Assembly (NCBI RefSeq): GCF_015097055.1
Contig: NZ_AP023366.1
Coordinates: forward strand, 1,736,001 to 1,800,000
Direction: 5' to 3'
From: Effusibacillus dendaii
GTDB lineage: Bacteria; Bacillota; Bacilli; Tumebacillales; Effusibacillaceae
Length of the DNA: 64,000 bases
The notes beneath the pieces are model-generated. The model ran no database searches, was not told the DNA's origin, and saw only the letters and a program-made list of their open reading frames with translations. Positions 49,804 to 63,540 of the stretch are shown here, one piece after another; positions within the stretch are counted from its first letter, which is position 1, and each line of letters starts with the position of its first letter. Both the position numbers and the translations under genes were made by a program.

Positions 49804-51747
49804 TTAAGATTGGAGATTACGACCGAGTTTTCGATAAATCGTGCTCCGATGAATACCCAACTTACGTGCCGTCTCTGATACGTTTCCATTTAATTCATTG
49901 AGCACCGCAAGGATGAGTTGTGTTTCCTGGTTCCTGAATGCAGTCCTTGTGGTCAAGAAATTCTGTCTCACTTCAATCCGATTCCTCCTGCCCCCATGTA
50001 TTTCTTCCGGCAAATCGACCGCACGCACGAGATTTCCTGTCAATTTGGCGGCTATTCGATAGGCAATATTCCGCAGTTCCCGAACGTTGCCCGGCCACGG
50101 GTAATCTTCCAAAACCCTCAATGCTTCCTCATCCACCTGAATCGGTGATCGCCCCATCTCATGGCATACTTTTTGCAAGAAATGTTTCAACAGAAGAGGA
50201 ATATCTCCCTGTCTTTCCCGTAGAGGGGGAACCCGCAGCGATAGTATATTTAATCGGTAGTACAGGTCCCGGCGAAACTTACCATTTTCAATATCAGCGA
50301 AAAGGTCCCGATTCGTGGCGGCAATAATTCGTACGTTTACCCGGATTGGCTTTTTCCCGCCCAAGCGGACAACTTCCTTCTCCTCAAGAACCCGCAGCAT
50401 AAGAGTCTGTAAATCAAGCGGCAATTCACCTATTTCATCGAGGAATATAGTTCCTCCGTCAGCCAGTTCGAATTTGCCTTCTCTTCCATCTTTTCTTGCT
50501 CCCGTAAACGTGCCACCCTCATAACCAAAAAATTCACTGGCAGCAAGTTCCTTTGGTATAGCACCACAATTTACTGCCACAAAAGGTCCTGTCTCCCGGC
50601 AACTTGCAGCGTGAATTGACTGAGCCAATAATTCTTTTCCCGTTCCACTCTCTCCCTCAATCAAAACCGGCAACTCACTTCTGGCAGCCGATCGTGCTTC
50701 CGACAGTGCGGCCAAAAATTTCGATGAACGGCCGATCATATTGCCAAATGAATACTTGGTTGAGAGCTCTGCGTAAGACCGACTGCCGCTATTGGGCGGA
50801 ACGGCTTGGACAATAGCGCCAATAGGATGATCTTCATGGAAACAGGTACGGAGTACAAAGTCCCACTTTCCGTTCTTTCCTTCGACTTCCCAATTCATTT
50901 CTGCCATTGTTGATGAAACACCAGGACAGCCTACCAGGCGATTGTTTGAATCGATCCAGCCATATTCATACATTTTAGGAACCGCTTTGATCACTGTACC
51001 CCCACGATCCAGTGCAACCATAAGTGTATTTGGACTGCGAGAAATTCCACTCAAATAATATTCCAGAACTTTTGTCCGTTCGACCTCTAATGTGTGGCGA
51101 AGCCGTTCTTCTATCGCCCTCACAGCCGACACGACCACGGAGAGAGTGTGTGGATGGGCGGTCTGCCACGGTCCCGTAAGATCGAGAACCCCTAAAATTT
51201 GCTGAGTGGCCGGGTCTCGAATCGGAGATGCCGAACAGGTCCAACTATGGACCTCTTGGCAAAAGTGCTCGGCTGCAAAAACCTGCACGGGCGAACGGTT
51301 TACAAGTGAAATACCTATACCGTTGGTACCCGCATTACTCTCAGCCCAGGATGCTCCAATAACGAAATCCATATTCTCTGCTTTTCTTCTTAAGGAAATA
51401 TCTCCGTCAATTGTTAAAATAGTGCCGTTTTCATCGGTTAATACCACCAAATGACCGGAATCATTTGCCAGGTCTTTCAGTTCGCGTACTATAGGATTCA
51501 GATCAAAGAACAGCCGGTTATCTGACAAATAGTCTTGAATATATTCTTCGGAGAAAAGAATTGGCGGCTTTGACTGGAGAGGATGAATCCCCAGTGAATG
51601 ACAACGTTGCCATGATTCAACCACCAAAGGTCGGACATCAAGGTCCAGACGCTGTCTGATTATAAAACTTTCCCAGGCTGACTCCAATTTCGATCTTACA
51701 GAATGAGGAGAAGACCATGCATCTAAAGCAAGAAACGGATTCTTCAT
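49804..51747 (-). CDS. Sigma-54-dependent transcriptional activator (AcoR-like)
   Basis: A 647-residue enhancer-binding protein. An N-terminal GAF-type sensory region (about 70-220, with GTNGIGISLVNRSPVQVF and EHFCQEVHSWTCSASPIRD) precedes a PAS-like segment (about 235-325). The AAA+ domain holds Walker A GESGTGKELLAQSIH near 365, the sigma-54 loop GGTFTGARKDGREGKF near 415 (GTFTGA instead of GAFTGA), and Walker B GGTIFLDEIGELP. The Fis-type HTH is SETARKLGIHRSTIYRKLGRN at the end. AcoR, MimR and BmoR are named relatives. It most likely activates the neighbouring -24/-12 promoter at 54973-54990. Confidence 0.92.
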   Translation of the reverse strand: MKNPFLALDAWSSPHSVRSKLESAWESFIIRQRLDLDVRPLVVESWQRCHSLGIHPLQSKPPILFSEEYIQDYLSDNRLFFDLNPIVRELKDLANDSGHLVVLTDENGTILTIDGDISLRRKAENMDFVIGASWAESNAGTNGIGISLVNRSPVQVFAAEHFCQEVHSWTCSASPIRDPATQQILGVLDLTGPWQTAHPHTLSVVVSAVRAIEERLRHTLEVERTKVLEYYLSGISRSPNTLMVALDRGGTVIKAVPKMYEYGWIDSNNRLVGCPGVSSTMAEMNWEVEGKNGKWDFVLRTCFHEDHPIGAIVQAVPPNSGSRSYAELSTKYSFGNMIGRSSKFLAALSEARSAARSELPVLIEGESGTGKELLAQSIHAASCRETGPFVAVNCGAIPKELAASEFFGYEGGTFTGARKDGREGKFELADGGTIFLDEIGELPLDLQTLMLRVLEEKEVVRLGGKKPIRVNVRIIAATNRDLFADIENGKFRRDLYYRLNILSLRVPPLRERQGDIPLLLKHFLQKVCHEMGRSPIQVDEEALRVLEDYPWPGNVRELRNIAYRIAAKLTGNLVRAVDLPEEIHGGRRNRIEVRQNFLTTRTAFRNQETQLILAVLNELNGNVSETARKLGIHRSTIYRKLGRNLQS

Positions 51748-51983
51748 ATTTTACAGAGCCACCTCCCGGAAATTACCCCGTAAATACTTTTTAGACTTCG
51801 GTTTGCTAACACATGAATCGTTTCAAGATGCGGCCAACCCACAATCAGCTTTTATTTTTAAAGTTTCTTCCGAATAAATGATTTTTCGGCAGGCAAAAAT
51901 AACAGAAAATTATACGTATTCCGATTATATAATATTTTTTATCTTAAAATCAATATCAATAATATTGCACTCTTTATATACGA

Positions 51984-52018
51984 AAAAGAAGCGCCGAGAT
52001 ATCCCCCGGCGCTCTTCC
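51984..52018 (-). terminator. Terminator of the amidohydrolase-DUF59-ADH operon
   Basis: Minus strand AGCGCCGGGGGATATCTCGGCGCTT then CTTTTTC. It lies 13 bases after the alcohol dehydrogenase stop. Confidence 0.75.
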
Positions 52019-52030
52019 TGCAGGTATATT

Positions 52031-53056
52031 TCAGGGAACCAAAACTGCCCTTCCGTTGATCTTCCCATCATGAAGCAACTTCAGTATATCATTTGCCTCG
52101 TCCAGTGCATACTTGGCTGAGTGGAGTATTACCTTGCCGCGAGCATGGAGTTCCATTAACTGATACAGATCATTGTAGTTTCCAACTAAACTGCCGACAA
52201 TGCTTATTTCATTGTTAATAAGGTTAAGTGAAGGAACTTTCACGGTCCCCCCATAACCAACCACGAAATAGGTCCCCCCTTTTCGCAACATTTGCAGACT
52301 CTCCGCATGAGTCTGGTCAGTACCCACGAAGTCAATGATAATATCCGCTCCCTGCTCAGCTGTAAGACTCAGTACTTGCGAAACAGCCCTATCGTTCGCT
52401 TCCACTGCATGAACTGCCCCAAGATCCAATGCCATATTTAGGCGATCCTTATTCCTGTCAAAGGCAATAATATCCGAATTCCCCAGTTCTCGCATGACCT
52501 GAACGCCAATATGCCCAAGCCCCCCCATCCCAATCATGAGAACTTTGGTGCCCGGCTTGGCTAAAGGGGCAGCTCTCCGTACAGCTCTGTACGCAGTGAT
52601 TCCAGCGTCGGCAAATGGTGCCACATCAGCGGGATTCACATCATTTGGCAATGGAATCAAAGCTCGTTCAGAGGTCTTTAAATACTCGGCATATCCGCCA
52701 TCAACGGTCAGACCGGGAAATTTAAGATTCGGGCAGTGCATATCCTCTCCGGCACGACAGTTCAAACATTTTCCACAACTCATCACAGGGTGCACAATGA
52801 CAGGGTCGCCCACCTTAAAATTAGTGACGGCAGAACCTACTGCATGGACCCAACCGGCGTTTTCGTGACCGATGATGTAGGGAAGTTCTGTACCAAGGGT
52901 TTCCGCCCAAACCCCTTCGATCAGATGCAGGTCGGTATGACAAACTCCAGCCCCCCCAATTTTTACAATAACATCGCTTGAGTCGGTAATAACAGGATCC
53001 GGAACTTGTTCAATGCGTAAAGGTTCATTATATTTATGCAAACGTGCGGCCTTCAT
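52031..53056 (-). CDS. Zinc-dependent alcohol dehydrogenase
   Basis: A 341-residue medium-chain dehydrogenase. The catalytic zinc ligands are Cys39 in GVCHTDLHLIEG and His in IIGHENAGWVHAVG near 65; the structural zinc site is CGKCLNCRAGEDMHC near 94-108. The Rossmann motif is GMGGLGHIGVQVM near 177, followed by Asp in IIAFDRN, indicating NAD. In propane-oxidation clusters the corresponding ADH oxidises 2-propanol or a similar product; this substrate is inferred from context only. Its ATG overlaps the DUF59 stop by one base (TAATG). Last gene of the operon. Confidence 0.9.
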   Translation of the reverse strand: MKAARLHKYNEPLRIEQVPDPVITDSSDVIVKIGGAGVCHTDLHLIEGVWAETLGTELPYIIGHENAGWVHAVGSAVTNFKVGDPVIVHPVMSCGKCLNCRAGEDMHCPNLKFPGLTVDGGYAEYLKTSERALIPLPNDVNPADVAPFADAGITAYRAVRRAAPLAKPGTKVLMIGMGGLGHIGVQVMRELGNSDIIAFDRNKDRLNMALDLGAVHAVEANDRAVSQVLSLTAEQGADIIIDFVGTDQTHAESLQMLRKGGTYFVVGYGGTVKVPSLNLINNEISIVGSLVGNYNDLYQLMELHARGKVILHSAKYALDEANDILKLLHDGKINGRAVLVP

Positions 53057-53778
53057 TATTTACATACCTCCAATTCGGATAGTGGTTCCATGCTATACCG
53101 CGTTTCAAACAACCCTCGGCAATAATGCCCATTAAATTCCATACTTAAACGGGTTCGCCGAATATTTGCCAAGTACCCAGGAAAACTTTCCAGATCCAGC
53201 TTTTTGCCATCAGACTGAATAAAAGCAATCTTCTTTGGTTCGTTGTCATACCCCAGTGCTTGGCGAATGGATAAGTATTGCTTTGTCAGCATGATTCCCT
53301 CCGATTCGAGATTTGGAAGCTCCAACAAATCTCGAATAGTCAAATCCAGGATTGACGAATGAGTGAATCCTAAGCGGATAAGATGTCGCAATAACCTTTC
53401 TTGACGGGATACGAATGCCTTGACACGAAATGTTTTTCGCAGCTCATCCAGTTGCCCGGATGACATATCAGGGAATGTTTCAACGAACGTTTTGCCGTTG
53501 GAAACCCCCTCATTGATTTCGGCCGAAGCACAATGATCTTCCAGACAAACCGCCACCTTTTTGACCCATGGAAGTTCCGATATTCGATCACGAATATCCT
53601 CTGCCATGATGAAAGCAAAGTTTGGAGAACACCAATATGTGGGAAGACGAAATGACACCGTGACGTCCGAACCGTTAATTGCCACTTGGTTAATAAAACC
53701 CAACTCTGTAAGCGATTGATCCAGTTCTGGATCATAAACTTCGGCTAATTTTGCAAATACTTCTTCCCGTTGTTGCAT
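53056..53778 (-). CDS. DUF59/MIP18 (SufT-like) domain protein
   Basis: A 240-residue protein. The N-terminal DUF59 domain (about 1-95) reads AKLAEVYDPELDQSLTELGFINQVAINGSDVTVSFRLPTYWCSPNFA, with the conserved cysteine of SufT/MIP18 metal-sulfur assembly factors in TYWCSP. The C-terminal half (about 100-240) is a separate region with FPDMSSGQLDELRKTF and LTKQYLSIRQALGYDNEPK. Proteins of this composition follow the propane monooxygenase genes in actinobacteria and are thought to help maturation. ATG 53778 after GGGAGG is preferred over a start six codons further up. It is translationally coupled to the ADH gene. Confidence 0.8.
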   Translation of the reverse strand: MQQREEVFAKLAEVYDPELDQSLTELGFINQVAINGSDVTVSFRLPTYWCSPNFAFIMAEDIRDRISELPWVKKVAVCLEDHCASAEINEGVSNGKTFVETFPDMSSGQLDELRKTFRVKAFVSRQERLLRHLIRLGFTHSSILDLTIRDLLELPNLESEGIMLTKQYLSIRQALGYDNEPKKIAFIQSDGKKLDLESFPGYLANIRRTRLSMEFNGHYCRGLFETRYSMEPLSELEVCK

Positions 53779-53801
53779 CTCCGACCCTCCCATCAACCCG
53801 A

Positions 53802-54821
53802 TTATCCACGTATTGCGACCTTGTCACTCCGTATTTTGGCCTTCTGGGCTTCAATATCGATACCATATAAACGGGCGGCATTCTCGCCCAAAATTTTCCT
53901 TTTTACAGAAAGGGTTAAATTAGCCCCTGTTTCTTGTTGGATATCTTCCGGCAGTTCAAATGCCATAAATTTCTCAATCAGCCATTTCGGTTCCCAAAGT
54001 GCATAGTCACTCCCGAACAAGATTCGGTCCTCACCAACCCAGTACAACAGTTCACTGATGATTTCTGCGAAATAACGAGGACGGGTATGAATGAATGGGA
54101 TTGCTACGGCCAAGCCAGCATACACATTGGATTCTTGCGTGGCGATCCAACAGAAATCCTCTAACCGGGGCAGACCGCAATGTTCCACGATAAAATTCAG
54201 ACCCGGGAAGCTGCTGGCCGCATCATCAATATCAGCAACATCAAAAGCATCCCGATTCAGCGGAGTAATGGTGGGACCCTTATGCACATGAATATTAACA
54301 ATTCCCAGTTGTTCGCACTTTTCAAGGTACCGCTGCGCCCAAGGATCCGTGAGTTTATAGCCTTTCGAAGAACCCCTCCATTCGGCTGTATATAATTTCA
54401 CCCCCTTAACACCGTGGTTTACTGCCAAATATTCAAGATACTCAAGCCCCCGCTCCCCGTCACGCGGATCAAAAGTCCCGTTGCCAATAAATCTTCCCGG
54501 GTATTTTTTCGCAAGTTCGGCGTTCTTTTCAATATCACCGAAACCATTTTTATAAAAATCTGTCAGGAAGACAGGCTGAAAAATCGCCATGTCTACATAG
54601 CCCTTCACGAATAGGTCATTTACTAGAGTATCCGCATCGTATTTTTCAAACTTATCCTTTGGCCACAGATTTTCAGCTGGACTAAGGTTCTTATGATAGT
54701 CATAGAAACAATTGATAAATTGGGCGCCATGGATGTTCAACTGATTTTCCGGGCTTCCGTCCCATAGCGCAATATGACCGTCTATTACGAAAATCTCTTC
54801 TCCGTCGGCTGTTTTGAACAT
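53802..54821 (-). CDS. Amidohydrolase family protein
   Basis: A 339-residue TIM-barrel hydrolase (amidohydrolase 2 group). Motifs in order are IDGHIALWDG near 11 (HxxxW where HxH is usual), KLYTAEWRGSS near 142, VNIHVHKGPT near 175, FIVEHCGLPRLED near 212 and ILFGSDYALWEP near 270. In the propane-monooxygenase clusters of Rhodococcus (prm) and Mycobacterium (mim) an amidohydrolase of this kind is encoded just after the monooxygenase. First gene of the operon; ATG 54821 has AGGAGG six bases upstream. A sigma-54 promoter lies 150 bases upstream. Confidence 0.85.
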   Translation of the reverse strand: MFKTADGEEIFVIDGHIALWDGSPENQLNIHGAQFINCFYDYHKNLSPAENLWPKDKFEKYDADTLVNDLFVKGYVDMAIFQPVFLTDFYKNGFGDIEKNAELAKKYPGRFIGNGTFDPRDGERGLEYLEYLAVNHGVKGVKLYTAEWRGSSKGYKLTDPWAQRYLEKCEQLGIVNIHVHKGPTITPLNRDAFDVADIDDAASSFPGLNFIVEHCGLPRLEDFCWIATQESNVYAGLAVAIPFIHTRPRYFAEIISELLYWVGEDRILFGSDYALWEPKWLIEKFMAFELPEDIQQETGANLTLSVKRKILGENAARLYGIDIEAQKAKIRSDKVAIRG

Positions 54822-54972
54822 GCCCATTCCTCCTATTGTTTTTCATTTTTTGAAGAATAGGATCAAATAACCCAATTTCAATCCAAGTTCAAGAATTGAA
54901 CAACCGTTATGTAACCGCTCTCATTCAGAAGTCCCCCTTTCTTAAATTCAGCTGTCGCTGCCCTTTTTTATA

Positions 54973-56262: not shown

Positions 56263-56967
56263 TCATTGAAAAGTTGGCTTCCGGACCCAAGCGATAGTTT
56301 GGAAATTTACGTTGTCAGGATCGTATTCAAAACTTCTCTTGTTTTGGTTCCGCGCATCGATCTGTTGCATCTCTTCCTGGGTCAGCGAAAAATCGAAAAC
56401 GTCCGCATTCTCCCGGATACGGGCTGCACGCACCGATTTGGGAATGGTTACGACCCCATGCTGCAAATTCCAGCGAATCGCAATCTGCGCCGGCGTTTTA
56501 CCGTATTTCTGGCCCAGTTCCACTAAGACCGGATTGCCAAGCAGTTCTCCCTTGCGCATCAGCGGTGACCACGCTTCCATTTGAATGTCCTGCTGCTTGC
56601 AAAAATCAAGAATTTCCTTTTGCGTTAACAGGGGATGCCGCTACACCTGGTTGACCATTGGCTTTATTTCAAAATGATCCAGGATATCCTGCAAATGATG
56701 CACTTGAAAGTTACTCACCCCGATTGCCCGTACATACCCATCCCGCTAGAGCTTCTCCAATGCTCGCCATGTCTCTTTGTACTTGTCCGGCACGGCCCAG
56801 TGGATCAAATAGAGTTTGTAGACAGTAGCCGTATCAATGCTGCGATACCCTACTTCAATCGCTGTACGAACCGCGTTCTCCACTTCCTCACCATCCTCGG
56901 CCATCCACACACCAAGTCCCAGCCAGGGCATTTTCACACCGTTATGTAATGTTGTGCAATCAGACAA
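56263..56967 (-). pseudogene. Decayed aldo/keto reductase gene (2,5-diketogluconate reductase type)
   Basis: One minus-strand frame carries the whole remnant: [21 protein letters not shown] to SIDTATVY, then a jump to [22 protein letters not shown]. About 45 residues, including the catalytic lysine, are deleted between the two. TAG codons follow at 56746-56748 and 56641-56643, separated by [20 protein letters not shown], and the C-terminal part runs QKEILDFCKQQDIQMEAWSP to KRSFEYDPDNVNF and the stop at 56263. Two nonsense codons plus the deletion make it inactive. It lies on the same strand, just upstream of the intact but differently typed aldo/keto reductase. Confidence 0.85.
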
Positions 56968-57890: not shown

Positions 57891-59407
57891 ACTCAACTTT
57901 CGCAGCTAAGTTTTGCGAATAAACCCTTGATATAATTGGGCAAACCTGAAATCCATTGCTGTACTTGACTCAAAACGGTAGACTGTTCCCGTTTCCGTTT
58001 AGCCCCTATGAGATCAAGAAAGAAGGCAATCAATTGTTGTAAAGCCGTCTTGAGATCCAGCTTTCGGATTTCATCGGAATAGAGAAAAAACAGACCGCCT
58101 AAGGAACGTGCATCGTTTTGTTGGCGACGCTCCCATTCCAAGACCAAATAGCGTGTAAATACGATGGTTGTATGGCTAATCAGCATCTCAAACGAACGGC
58201 CCTGGAACTCTGTTCCCAGCTTCAGATGCGACTTGGTAAATTTGAAGAAAGTTTCAATACTTCAGCGCATTCCATAAATGCGAACAATCTCGGATTCGTC
58301 CAACTCCAAGTCCGTACTGAGAATTACGAGCCACTCCCGACGTCGGTTCCGGTTTTGCACAAACACCAACTTGATCGGCAGACCGCAAGCCGTTTGAACA
58401 ATCACCGAGCCGAGAATTTCCGATTTTTTGGATTTAGCCAGGGTGGCATACAATTCCTTTAATGTCAATTGTTTGCCGTCCAGCACGTATCTTTGCTTCA
58501 TGTCCTTAATCATCCCAATAACATGCAATCCTTTGGACATGAGTTCACGGAGCAACGGGGCTTGGGTAAACCAACTGTCCATAAGGACAAAATCGGCTGT
58601 GAATCCAGCTTTTAAAGCCCGCCTCAACAAGTCCACTACAGCATCTGGTTTCCGGGAGAACGCTTCCAAACGTCGCTTATAGCCATGCGAACGCTTGATC
58701 AAACGATCTTTCATTTCACAGAAACGGTTGGTCAATTTGGCGGAGCTAAGCATTGTGAAATCGATGGGTGCAAAGCTAAACCCATCAGACCACCCGAGTG
58801 TCAGCATGTTGTAACCACGCACAAAGCGTCCCGTCGTATGGTCATGAACCCGTGCCAGCAGTTCTGCTTTCTTGCTGCGGTCACGGCGTAGGATGGAGTC
58901 GTCAATGATGAATACACGAACCCGAGAGGCAGAAATAAGCGATTCGAAGTGTTGGACAATTTTCAGACTTAGGCTTTGTAAAAACTTCCGCCATGCAAAG
59001 CGAGAATGATTCAAAAAGCGATAGACAACATCCTTGCCCGGCAAGGAGGAACGGTGATCGCTGTCGAGTAAACGAAACCAATTACGCCCCTGGAATACGA
59101 GAGTGAAAATGAGTTGAAATACGTCTAAAGCTGACATTCCGAAAGATTTACGAATACCGGCCTTACGAAGTAAATGGCCGATTTGTAAAGTTACGAAAAT
59201 CGCCGAAAAACGTTCTTCATGCTTTTCGGACAGAGAGTTGTGGTGTACCATAAAGTTACACACCTTTCTGTTTGGAATGGTAAGCTGGACACTTCCATTG
59301 TACCAAACGGGAAGGGTGTTTTTTTGCTGTCAAGCAGGCAAATATTAAGTTGGAGATCCCTGTAACGTAAAGGGTGAATCGAGTTTTTTAAGCTGCGAAA
59401 GTTGAGT
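57891..59407 (-). mobile_element. IS4-family insertion sequence
   Basis: A 1517-bp element bounded by perfect 17-bp inverted repeats: ACTCAACTTTCGCAGCT at 57891-57907 and its complement at 59391-59407. It carries one transposase gene on the minus strand. No direct target repeat is visible: the flanks AAGATGTTAAAT and TATCTATTTCAT differ, which suggests a later deletion or recombination next to the element. It interrupts the small AtuA-like gene at 59400. Confidence 0.9.
57893..59251 (-). pseudogene. IS4 transposase with an in-frame stop in the YREK signature
   Basis: A DDE transposase of about 452 codons from ATG 59251. First Asp in VFIIDDSILRRDRSK near 105, second in FVLMDSWFTQAP near 220. 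The C-terminal motif should be Y-x2-R-x3-E-x6-K: the sequence reads IYGMR, then TGA at 58262-58264, then SIETFFKFTKSHLKL in the same frame. The TGA stands where TGG (Trp) is expected, so one base change cuts the protein just before the catalytic Glu. The rest to 57893 is open, ending inside the inverted repeat. The copy is therefore probably immobile by itself. Confidence 0.9.
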
Positions 59408-59594
59408 TATCTATTTCATATCGAATGACTTCTCCAGTTAAAATCTTTTCATATTTTTGTTTGACCACTGATGCGGTGACTTGTTCTTTAATTACGGGGT
59501 AATACTCCGGCTTATAAGCGATAACTGAAATATTTGCCACATTCCCCTTATCGCCTGTACGGGAATGTGCCAATTTTCGAAGAGGTACCTGCAA
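59388..59594 (-). pseudogene. AtuA-like small protein truncated by the IS element
   Basis: Starts at TTG 59594 after GGGAGGTG, four bases after the AtuA-type gene stops. MQVPLRKLAHSRTGDKGNVA is the same start as the intact 102-residue paralogue at 60999-61307. After RYEIDN the reading frame enters the IS inverted repeat, adding STFAA and a stop, so about 43 residues are lost (the part with the conserved LNFVLFDALGGGVT in the paralogue). It is likely inactive. Confidence 0.85.
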
Positions 59595-59597
59595 TTT

Positions 59598-60953
59598 TTA
59601 CACCTCCCGGATGTGAATAACAGGTTGGATTTCCGTTCTGGGTATTAATGTCGACCAGATTCCTATTACTTCACGAACCCGATCGTGGTGCGGCACTCGT
59701 TTCCCTGTTGACGCCAAACCGCATACGGCCATACTATCAACTTCCAGTCCTACTTTGAGCGCTTCTTCTTTGGTTTTTGTTCTGGCTGCAACGCGAACCG
59801 CAACCTCGTATGGTTCATGCTCGGGTTCAGGAGATAAAGGCCCATGAATGGCATTCACTCCCAAAAAATCGATCCGTAGCTCTTCCGCCTTAAGCTGCAC
59901 TCTTTCAAATCTTCGCAATAAGATTTCCTTTGCCAGTTTGGCCTTATTCAAACACCCGGGACCTGCAAAGAAGAACATATCCTCACCAATAAACCCTTCT
60001 GCACAACCGATTGATACTTTATAAAACGGAGTTCGGGGCTTACCGGAAATATTCGTAATCATAACGTGATCTTTTTTAATCTCTTGCAATGAAACTGTTG
60101 TAAAATCAACCACGACATCGGGAGTGATATAGTTTTCGGGATCATGTACCTCATACAGAAGTTGTTCTTTGCATGTCCTCAAGCTCACTTCTCCGCCGGT
60201 CCCATCCACTTTGGACAGGATGGCTGTACCATCTTCGCTGATTTCGACAATCGGGAAGGCTAGATTCCAAATCTCCTCAACATCTTTGTAACCTGGGTCC
60301 GCAAAATACCCTCCAGTTACTTGAGCGCCACATTCCATCAGATGTCCAATCCCTGTCCCCATTCCCAGTGTCGCCCAATCGTCATACTTCCAATTAAATT
60401 CATATATCATGGGCGCCAGAAATAAAGATGGGTCGGCTACCCGCGATGTAATCACTATATCCGCTCCGGACTGCAATGCTTTTACAATCGGTTCGGCGCC
60501 CAGATAAGCTTCGGCTGAAACAATTGGATCGGAAATCGAACTTACAGGCTTTCCGCTCTCCAAAATCGTATTTCCAATATCCAGAATCCGATCTGTCACA
60601 ATTCCGCCTTCAATTGCAGCAACTTTCAGATTGGATAATCCCATTTCTTTTGCCAATTGGATTACCCGTTGGCAAGCGGCAACCGGATTTACCCACCCCT
60701 GGTTGCTTATGATTTTGATTCCTTTCTCTTTACAAGTTGGCAAGACCGCCCTGAACCGGGCATCCAAGTTTGTATCGTATCCCAAATAAGAAGGGTCCCG
60801 TCGAAGTCTTACTTGGGCGGCGGAAACGGTTGCCTCCGCCATCGTCTCAAATACTAAATAGTTGATATTCCCCCTCTCCACGTTCCAAACCGCCGGTTCG
60901 ATTCGATCCCCCCACCATGCCGAACCGGATCCAATACGAATTGTTTTTGACAA
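59598..60953 (-). CDS. AtuA (DUF1446) family protein, second copy
   Basis: A 451-residue acyclic-terpene-utilisation AtuA-type protein. N-terminal IRIGSGSAWWGDRIEPAVWN, DIVITSRVADPSLFLAPMI near 160, GHLMECGAQVTGGYFADPGYKDV near 203 and the C-terminal region IDFLGVNAIHGPLSPEPEHEPYEV are family hallmarks. AtuA belongs to citronellol/geraniol catabolism in Pseudomonas, biochemical function unclear; Bacilli carry relatives with unknown substrates. Start TTG 60953 with GGGGG six bases ahead. It is fourth in the minus-strand run after an earlier pair of the same kind. Confidence 0.87.
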   Translation of the reverse strand: MSKTIRIGSGSAWWGDRIEPAVWNVERGNINYLVFETMAEATVSAAQVRLRRDPSYLGYDTNLDARFRAVLPTCKEKGIKIISNQGWVNPVAACQRVIQLAKEMGLSNLKVAAIEGGIVTDRILDIGNTILESGKPVSSISDPIVSAEAYLGAEPIVKALQSGADIVITSRVADPSLFLAPMIYEFNWKYDDWATLGMGTGIGHLMECGAQVTGGYFADPGYKDVEEIWNLAFPIVEISEDGTAILSKVDGTGGEVSLRTCKEQLLYEVHDPENYITPDVVVDFTTVSLQEIKKDHVMITNISGKPRTPFYKVSIGCAEGFIGEDMFFFAGPGCLNKAKLAKEILLRRFERVQLKAEELRIDFLGVNAIHGPLSPEPEHEPYEVAVRVAARTKTKEEALKVGLEVDSMAVCGLASTGKRVPHHDRVREVIGIWSTLIPRTEIQPVIHIREV

Positions 60954-60998
60954 TGAAATCCCCCCTAAGCAAAAAGTCCCCGCAATATCCGCCTGTCT

Positions 60999-61307
60999 TC
61001 ATCGATCGACCAAATCAATGTTAAGCATTATGGAACTTAAGCTTTTTCCGTGGATATCCAGGTTTAACGCAGTAGTAACACCTCCCCCAAGCGCGTCAAA
61101 CAGAACAAAATTGAGTGCGGATATTTTGGGTAACTCATAGCGTTCCACCTTCCCCTGGATAATGTCACCGTATGCCTTCCTTACCACATCCACGTCTAAA
61201 TGCTCTTTAAGAAAGTCGTAGTCTTCCTCTTTGTAAGCTATCACCGACACATTGGATATATTTCCTTTGTCCCCTGCACGACAGTGAGCGATTTCCCGGA
61301 CTTTCAT
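60999..61307 (-). CDS. AtuA-like ferredoxin-fold small protein
   Basis: A 102-residue protein: KVREIAHCRAGDKGNISNVSVIAY at the start, DVDVVRKAYGDIIQGKVERYELP and the C-terminal LNFVLFDALGGGVTTALNLDIHGKSLSSIML. This is the small AtuA-like domain that in many bacteria is fused to the C-terminus of AtuA and here is a separate gene. It overlaps the stop codon of the upstream AtuA gene (ATGA), so the two are made in equal amounts. A second, truncated copy lies at 59388. Confidence 0.85.
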   Translation of the reverse strand: MKVREIAHCRAGDKGNISNVSVIAYKEEDYDFLKEHLDVDVVRKAYGDIIQGKVERYELPKISALNFVLFDALGGGVTTALNLDIHGKSLSSIMLNIDLVDR

Positions 61308-62653
61308 GCTGTGATCATCTCCTTCACAACAATACTCGTTTTAACTAGCTCACGTGGCAAAAGGATAGATAGAACCCCTATAATTTCCCGAACGTTTTTA
61401 AAATCTCCGGCTCCCCCGTACGGACCATTCGTAAGTAATGTTTCGACTTCGGCGCCAATCAGTTTCGCATCTTCAACGCTATCCGTTAGACCGGCTACTC
61501 GCAGGCGCACCTCATAAGGCTCTATAAACGGATTACTTGACTCACCATGCAAAGACTGTACACCAATAAAGTCTACCCGGAGATCCTTATAAGCAACGTT
61601 CCTGATTTTAAGCCTATCTACAACCACCTGTGCCGCTAACTTTGCCCGTTCAAGCGCACCTGGTCCCGCATAGCTCATCTGTCCTTCGCCTATATAACCA
61701 TTCTTGTAACCTACGCTTACCTTGTAGGTAGAAGTCCTGGGTTTGCCTTTACCACCAATGACTTGAATACGATCTTTTTCGACTTCGATAAACTCAACAT
61801 CCGTAAAATCGACGATACAATCCGGTGTTATATAACTCGAGGGGTCGTGAATCTCGTATAACATTTGTTCTTTACAAGTTGCCGGGGTAATACATCCACC
61901 TGATCCTGCTACCTTTGTGATAAATGCGGAGCCGTCTTCAAACACTTCACAGATAGGGAATCCCAATTTCTCCAAATTCGGTACATCCTTATATCCGGGA
62001 TCAGCAAAATAGCCACCGGTAATTTGTCCCGCACATTCCATTAAATGACCAATTACAGATCCTTGACCGATTAATTGGTAATCATTATAATTCCAGTCCA
62101 AAGCATGAATCATCGCCCCTAGAAACAATGAAGGGTCTGCTGTTCTACCCGTAATCACCACATCAGCCCCCGTGGACAAGGCATTGGATATTACCTCTGC
62201 ACCCAGGTACGCGTTAGCGGATATAATCTTATCTTGGATAGTAGAGAGCTTTTGACCGGTTTCGATAATATCGGCATCTTCAAAATCGCTTACGATATCG
62301 GATACATTGTCCCCAATCACGACTGCTATTCGTAAGTTGTTTATGTTCAATTCTTCAGCGATTTCCGCAACTACTTTCGCTGCAGATTCCGGGTTCGCGG
62401 CTCCCATATTCGTGATGATTTTTACACCCTTTTGCTTCGCAATCGGTAAAACTGAACGCATTCGTGCTTCCAACCAAGGATTGTACCCTTTGTCAGGATT
62501 GCTTAACCGGTCGAGATGCTCTCTCGCGATGGTCCTTTCTGCTAGCGCTTCAAAAACCAAGTATTGTATATCTCCTTTTTCCACCAACTCAATTGCCGGT
62601 TCCCAACGGTCCCCCGCATATCCTGATCCCGCCCCAATTCTTACCTTTTTCAC
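61304..62653 (-). CDS. AtuA (DUF1446) family protein, first copy
   Basis: A 449-residue paralogue of the protein at 59598 (VRIGAGSGYAGDRWEPAIEL at the start, DVVITGRTADPSLFLGAMIHA, GHLMECAGQITGGYFADPGYKDV, VDFIGVQSLHGESS). The two share motifs throughout but differ at many positions, so the duplication is old. The start is GTG 62653 with AAGGAGATGAG some 13 bases upstream. It is the first gene of the four-gene run and follows the regulator gene by about 215 bases. Confidence 0.87.
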   Translation of the reverse strand: MKKVRIGAGSGYAGDRWEPAIELVEKGDIQYLVFEALAERTIAREHLDRLSNPDKGYNPWLEARMRSVLPIAKQKGVKIITNMGAANPESAAKVVAEIAEELNINNLRIAVVIGDNVSDIVSDFEDADIIETGQKLSTIQDKIISANAYLGAEVISNALSTGADVVITGRTADPSLFLGAMIHALDWNYNDYQLIGQGSVIGHLMECAGQITGGYFADPGYKDVPNLEKLGFPICEVFEDGSAFITKVAGSGGCITPATCKEQMLYEIHDPSSYITPDCIVDFTDVEFIEVEKDRIQVIGGKGKPRTSTYKVSVGYKNGYIGEGQMSYAGPGALERAKLAAQVVVDRLKIRNVAYKDLRVDFIGVQSLHGESSNPFIEPYEVRLRVAGLTDSVEDAKLIGAEVETLLTNGPYGGAGDFKNVREIIGVLSILLPRELVKTSIVVKEMITA

Positions 62654-62869: not shown

Positions 62870-63424
62870 TTAATTGGAAACAATAATAACCAGAACTTTT
62901 GATTCCTGATTATTTCTAGATAGAAACATATGAGGTTTATCACCAAAATAATAGGCGCTGTCCCCTTCTTCCAAGGGATACAGTTTCCCGTCATAATACA
63001 AATCAATGGCTCCCTCTACCACAAAGGCGAATTCTTCTTCCTGGTGAGAGAAGGGTTGCTTTCCCTCCGTTACTTCTGGAACGATAACCATAAACGTTTC
63101 TATTTTAGCCAATGATTTACGATTGGCTAATCCATAATAAAAGTAACCAAACTCGGTTACGTTCGACACGATAGGAGTTCGTTCTTCTTTTTTGGTTATA
63201 ATGAGTTCCGAATCTTCGCCTTCTTCCTCAAAAAACCAGGACAATTTAACATTTAAAGCGTTGGCGATTTTTGACAACGTTGCGATTGGCAGCGAGATAC
63301 GTCCGTTTTCAATCTTTGATATCATACCTTTTGTATATCCGCATTTATCCGCTAAATCTTGTTGGGTAAGTTTCAAGTGAGTTCTTAATAGCCTGATTCT
63401 TTCCGATATTTTTTTCTCATCCAT
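62870..63424 (-). CDS. XRE-family regulator with cupin sensor domain
   Basis: A 184-residue transcription factor. The helix-turn-helix (about 5-58) includes KLTQQDLADKCGYTKGMISKIENGRISLPIATLSKIANAL; a cupin domain (about 80-180) carries QPFSHQEEEFAFVVEGAIDLYYDGKLYPLEEGDSAYYFGDKPHMF with His/Glu residues of a metal or ligand site. This architecture senses small catabolic substrates. ATG 63424 is chosen; a TTG four codons earlier is too close to AGGAGAG. It lies upstream of the AtuA run on the same strand and is its probable local regulator. Confidence 0.88.
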   Translation of the reverse strand: MDEKKISERIRLLRTHLKLTQQDLADKCGYTKGMISKIENGRISLPIATLSKIANALNVKLSWFFEEEGEDSELIITKKEERTPIVSNVTEFGYFYYGLANRKSLAKIETFMVIVPEVTEGKQPFSHQEEEFAFVVEGAIDLYYDGKLYPLEEGDSAYYFGDKPHMFLSRNNQESKVLVIIVSN

Positions 63425-63540
63425 ACCTATGCTCAACTCTCCTAGACAGGTTTTTCAACTAAAGTTTCCTAATATTCAACTTAAGTATACTCATAATAAC
63501 CAGAAATTTCAGTTTAGTCAATACAACTGAATCCGGGATT

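Follow-up and report, generated by a model that had tools for sequence, protein, structure and literature searches.

Results

The window analysed here, a 64-kb stretch of a host genome that is a single contig of 3.45 Mb, carries on its minus strand the genes AtuA-1, small-1, AtuA-2 and small-2, in that order, which by their open reading frames and domains form a probable operon. The two large subunits, AtuA-1 (61304 to 62653; GTG start; 449 residues) and AtuA-2 (59598 to 60953; TTG start; 451 residues), match the Pfam family PF07287 along their full length, with scores of 507 and 485 bits, respectively, against a curated cut-off of 22.8 bits. The intact small subunit, small-1 (60999 to 61307; ATG start; 102 residues), matches positions 1 to 111 of the 113 positions of PF23544 (AtuA_ferredoxin), also above the curated cut-off. 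Small-2 (TTG start) is truncated: its native part spans 59409 to 59594, its open frame runs on to 59388 to give 68 residues, and it covers PF23544 positions 1 to 52 only. An ATGA overlap joins the stop of AtuA-1 to the start of small-1, and an AAGGAG resembling a ribosome-binding site lies within the 3′ end of AtuA-1, ahead of small-1. Similarly, three bases separate the stop of AtuA-2 from the TTG start of small-2, and GGAGGTG lies within the 3′ end of AtuA-2. Both large/small junctions would fit coupled translation, and the gene spacing, with a gap of 45 nt between small-1 and AtuA-2, suggests a probable co-transcription of all four genes.

A gene for a protein with an XRE-type helix-turn-helix and a cupin domain (62870 to 63436; Pfam HTH_3 and Cupin_2) lies on the same minus strand, 217 nt upstream of AtuA-1, a position that makes its product a candidate regulator of the operon. 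Its architecture is PuuR-like, and its match to the NCBIfam PuuR model is far under the cut-off. A domain search of the neighbouring genes found no transporter, CitMHS, AtoDA or thiolase gene in the operon and no acyl-CoA gene, carboxylase and hydratase included, beside it; the genes of geranyl-CoA carboxylase and isohexenylglutaconyl-CoA hydratase (atuCF, atuE) are likewise absent among its neighbours. A preliminary description of this DNA had read a large-small-large-small order with the last gene cut by an insertion sequence (IS), as the open reading frames, Pfam matches and junction sequence bear out; it had also remarked on the lack of acyl-CoA genes of terpene catabolism, which holds for carboxylase and hydratase near the operon. 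Elsewhere on the minus strand of the window, a pseudogene-like aldo/keto reductase gene (56263 to 56967) consists of an N-terminal piece (56746 to 56967) without the middle and an isolated C-terminal piece (56263 to 56580). The region 49804 to 54827 encodes a sigma-54 activator, a zinc alcohol dehydrogenase, a 246-residue FeS_assembly_P (MIP18/DUF59) protein and an Amidohydro_2 protein, again on the minus strand.

The IS4-type element that takes the place of the 3′ part of small-2 (57891 to 59407, minus strand; 1517 bp) ends in 17-bp terminal inverted repeats, read from the sequence as ACTCAACTTTCGCAGCT. Its IS4-family transposase gene, matched in two pieces by the NCBIfam model transpos_IS4_4, is interrupted by an in-frame stop, and a copy of the element with 73% identity lies in opposite orientation at genome position 1813877 to 1815260. 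Small-2 retains 62 native codons of about 100, the last six codons of its open frame (NSTFAA) being terminal inverted repeat sequence, and five of the twelve family-invariant positions (F67, G75, G76, D84 and K88) are missing. No target-site duplication was found at the element, and the lost 3′ part of small-2 was found neither beyond it nor elsewhere in the host genome, where the only complete small gene besides small-1 belongs to a third pair. A simple insertion into small-2 was therefore rejected, since the missing duplication makes a later deletion or rearrangement likelier. Because the lost part is found nowhere in the genome, such an event probably removed the downstream end of small-2, possibly with further genes; loss of a downstream part at the IS may bear on the absence of CitMHS and AtoDA-thiolase genes from the operon. 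Judged from its sequence, pair 2, whose small subunit lacks its C-terminal third, probably has no activity unless both large subunits share small-1.

The two large subunits are 48% identical, and in the alignment both retain the invariant residues of their clade. In the tree, AtuA-2 has a long branch and a basal position in the clade, and AtuA-1, which is not its sister, groups with proteobacterial sequences (L063, L131, L101 and L138; support 99/99). These positions indicate that the pairs are old relatives and not a fresh duplication. A recent tandem duplication was thus rejected on the identity and the tree. The third AtuA and small pair of the host genome falls in a separate clade (100/100), and its locus (L021; genome 1044000 to 1063500) is an acyl-CoA operon with genes for an enoyl-CoA hydratase, two acyl-CoA dehydrogenases, a MaoC dehydratase, an SSF symporter and AMP-ligases; one AMP-ligase gene (L021:6180-6557) seems reduced to its C-terminal domain. 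No viral contig had a relative of AtuA-1, and the Pectobacterium pair had no match at the DNA level in E. coli genomes.

The relatives found by the searches suggest that the host is a member of the Bacillota. Relatives were compared in the best 80 of 596 loci from a species-level genome collection. Each of the 80 has a single large gene and, apart from it, a single small gene, 3 to 113 nt away, and none has a large-small fusion; no fusion occurs among the sampled Bacillota either, where all small genes lie on short open frames. Split subunits are the rule in the AtuA-1/AtuA-2 branch, and the double pair is the exception: only the host genome among the sampled Bacillota has more than one small gene, and the tandem double pair is confined to it among these and the best 80 of 596 relatives. 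Fused AtuA proteins of about 593 to 596 residues form a different group, adjoining acyl-CoA carboxylase and enoyl-CoA hydratase genes. The preliminary description was thus right that fused proteins exist elsewhere, but the split arrangement is not special, as the pair is neither fused nor dispersed in the orthologous operons of this sample. The same loci bear on whether both pairs build one hetero-complex, or supply two specificities used jointly, as a single large-small-large-small machine. While one probable transcript and the conserved residues kept by both large subunits would suit such a machine, the single pair in every one of the 80 loci, the restriction of additional small genes to the host genome among the samples and the truncation of small-2 in that genome render it very improbable.

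In 55 of these best 80 of 596 loci the gene immediately upstream of the pair encodes a CitMHS citrate:proton symporter, and in 9 of the 80 a gene for the tricarboxylate-binding protein TctC is adjacent. Among Bacillota, CitMHS stands beside the pair at 13 of the 17 loci of the clade, whereas none of the 10 loci from the acyl-CoA-type clade has it there. AtoD, AtoA and CitMHS genes accompany the pair at 11 loci, from Snodgrassella (four), Azospirillum, Rhizobium, Pectobacterium, Rubrivivax, Entomohabitans, a soil MAG and one Bacillota genome; ten of them also hold a thiolase of the acetyl-CoA acetyltransferase type. The order in Rhizobium wenxiniae is CitMHS, AtuA, small, AtoD, AtoA, thiolase, acetate kinase (AckA) and phosphate acetyltransferase (Pta), the last two being added in this ato-type locus only. 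The nearest group of AtuA-1 (the four sequences named above) has TctC, amidase, UbiD or M19 dipeptidase genes as neighbours and not CitMHS or Ato genes. UbiD-type decarboxylase genes lie by AtuA and small pairs at two distant loci (L063:2471-3949 and L025:3787-5529), where a link to a decarboxylation step is possible. A whole-genome search of the host found several CitMHS-family genes but none beside the AtuA operon, and some 70 kb separate its AtoD, AtoA and thiolase genes from that operon.

These neighbourhoods speak to the possibility that the pair works as a terpene-type AtuA, with a CoA thioester (3-hydroxy-3-alkylglutaryl-CoA) as its substrate. Membership of the same Pfam family, the company that fused AtuA proteins keep with carboxylase and hydratase genes, and the setting of the third paralogue of the host among acyl-CoA dehydrogenases and an enoyl-CoA hydratase would all agree with it, as would the ADP in the CmlAB structure discussed below, which could mark a CoA-like site. 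However, no acyl-CoA genes adjoin the window operon, free-acid transporters stand beside most relatives (among the best 80 of 596 and in Bacillota), and the third paralogue belongs to that separate, fully supported clade. We therefore regard a CoA thioester as an improbable substrate.

AlphaFold models of the single chains (pLDDT 94 for AtuA-1 and 86.9 for small-1) point instead to citramalate lyase CmlAB. The AtuA-1 model aligned with 9evf_A (CmlA) over 419 residues with a Z of 32.4 (next best 9.1), and the small-1 model with 9evf_B (CmlB) over 92 residues with a Z of 10.7 (next best 7.6); the corresponding Foldseek E values were 4.7e-26 and 4.2e-4. For each model, the 9evf chain was the only strong structural match in the PDB. 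RNA-polymerase domains resembled small-1 less closely (Z up to 7.6), and the likeness was set aside as a common arrangement. By profile, too, CmlA was the only strong PDB relative of the large subunit (E 3.3e-6; probability 96.8%), with the motifs GRxxDP, EC and LYExxDP in common. Identity between AtuA-1 and CmlA is 15%, so the substrate of CmlAB is not transferable. Profile comparison detected no sequence similarity between small-1 and CmlB (probability 1.2%), and in Pfam small-1 matched PF23544 only and not DUF4387 (PF14330). Matching folds without sequence similarity suggest that PF23544 and DUF4387 are variants of a single subunit. AtuA-1 and small-1 are thus adjacent large and small genes whose modelled folds match chains A and B, and since both models do so, a CmlAB-like lyase of two subunits is the most likely identity of the pair. 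The two-component complex proposed from the gene order gains support from these models, which suggest that such a complex would form.

The PDB title of 9evf names citramalate lyase with ADP, and this ADP may mark a nucleotide or CoA-like site. The E. coli O157 proteins ECs_0760/ECs_0759 match the CmlA/CmlB chains, and their genes adjoin those of glutamate mutase, methylaspartate ammonia-lyase and the mesaconase FumD, a route that ends in citramalate. The fate of citramalate from this glutamate-mesaconate cluster was open in 2015 (PMC4682846). In the Sakai record (L163/L164), CmlB (ECs_0759) is labelled 'acyl-CoA synthetase' and CmlA (ECs_0760) '3-methylaspartate ammonia-lyase', at odds with the PDB names. 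In the literature collection searched, no paper on 9ERQ/9EVF, DUF4387 or an AtuA-type citramalate lyase was found.

Discussion

We propose that AtuA-1 and small-1 together make up a two-subunit lyase with the architecture of CmlAB. Most of the active site would lie in the large subunit, and the small one, a ferredoxin-like protein, would supply the rest. Such an enzyme would act on a carboxylate bearing a C3 hydroxyl (HO-C(R)(R')-CH2-COO-) and split it by retro-aldol cleavage into free acetate and a keto acid, in analogy to the cleavage of citramalate into pyruvate and acetate by CmlAB. Substrates of the AtuA-1/AtuA-2 branch would most likely be citrate-like 3-hydroxy acids imported as free acids. 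The suggestion in the preliminary description that the substrate differs from citronellol fits with this proposal, as no carboxylase or hydratase gene is nearby and relatives carry citrate-type symporters. Taken as a whole, the evidence is best explained by a CmlAB-like lyase of two subunits with a 3-hydroxy acid as substrate and acetate as one product, with a probability of roughly three in four; its catalysis and substrate are deduced from models and gene context. The functional label should most likely move from terpene utilisation to such an acetate-releasing lyase.

AtoDA, thiolase, AckA and Pta serve to activate acetoacetate and acetate. Their genes beside the pair in relatives thus suggest that acetoacetate and acetate are the products, and hence that 3-hydroxy-3-methylglutarate would be the best-fitting substrate of the CitMHS operons with ato genes. 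3-Hydroxy-3-methylglutarate is citrate with a methyl in place of the middle carboxyl, and as a methyl analogue it would be a plausible cargo for a citrate-type symporter. This argument is strong for the CitMHS operons with ato genes and weaker for AtuA-1, since the nearest relatives of the latter have TctC, amidase or UbiD neighbours and its own operon has no transporter.

A lyase specific for citrate (giving oxaloacetate and acetate) or citramalate (giving pyruvate and acetate) would be another acetate-releasing enzyme of this kind, working without the acyl-carrier protein that classical citrate lyase uses. The annotation of the CitMHS symporters for citrate, the title of CmlAB in the PDB and the lack of ato genes at most CitMHS loci are all in keeping with it. 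On the other hand, thiolase and AtoDA genes accompany the pair in ten loci and would be unneeded for oxaloacetate or pyruvate, and the annotated neighbourhoods that were examined showed neither mesaconase nor glutamate mutase genes. We thus consider citrate or citramalate specificity rather unlikely.

More broadly, the clade might represent a widespread, unrecognised CoA-independent 3-hydroxy-3-methylglutarate lyase fed by citrate-type symporters, with PF23544 and DUF4387 as the same subunit; this extension is tentative, and we rate it somewhat below even odds. A literature search found nothing that links the breakdown of 3-hydroxy-3-methylglutarate to the AtuA family. Under the labels 'hypothetical protein' or 'acyclic terpene utilization', the pair occurs in hundreds of genomes. 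If the proposal is true, the terpene label is wrong for the entire clade, a single enzyme subunit underlies two small-domain families, and bacteria could degrade free 3-hydroxy-3-methylglutarate or citrate-like acids directly, without CoA activation or an acyl-carrier-protein lyase. It also offers a concrete and specific substrate prediction.

Terpene AtuA resembles the window proteins in having the PF07287 large domain and a PF23544-like C-terminal part, and the same type of acetate-releasing reaction is assigned to it, on 3-hydroxy-3-isohexenylglutaryl-CoA. Its lyase role has been described as characterised or as tentatively identified. LiuE is reported to perform this assigned step. In Thauera, terpene AtuA is one fused chain of 615 residues (PMC4847356). 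In contrast to such chains of about 600 residues, found by carboxylase and hydratase genes, the window proteins are split (449 and 102 residues) and have no such genes nearby.

The CitMHS-AtuA-small operons of Pseudomonadota and Bacillota, some with AtoDA and thiolase, belong to the clade of AtuA-1/AtuA-2, with 46 to 59% identity to AtuA-1, and their pair is arranged like that of the window and annotated 'acyclic terpene utilization AtuA family protein'. Where they have a single pair, their own symporter and a LysR or sigma-54 regulator, the window operon lacks a symporter, contains two pairs and is accompanied by an XRE/cupin regulator. CmlAB (PDB 9erq and 9evf; E. coli O157:H7 ECs_0760/ECs_0759) differs in its gene neighbourhood, in an identity of about 15% and in a small subunit of DUF4387 (PF14330) in place of AtuA_ferredoxin (PF23544). 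Like the window pair, however, it has overlapping large and small genes, a nearly full-length fold match in both subunits, and the same three motifs in the large one.
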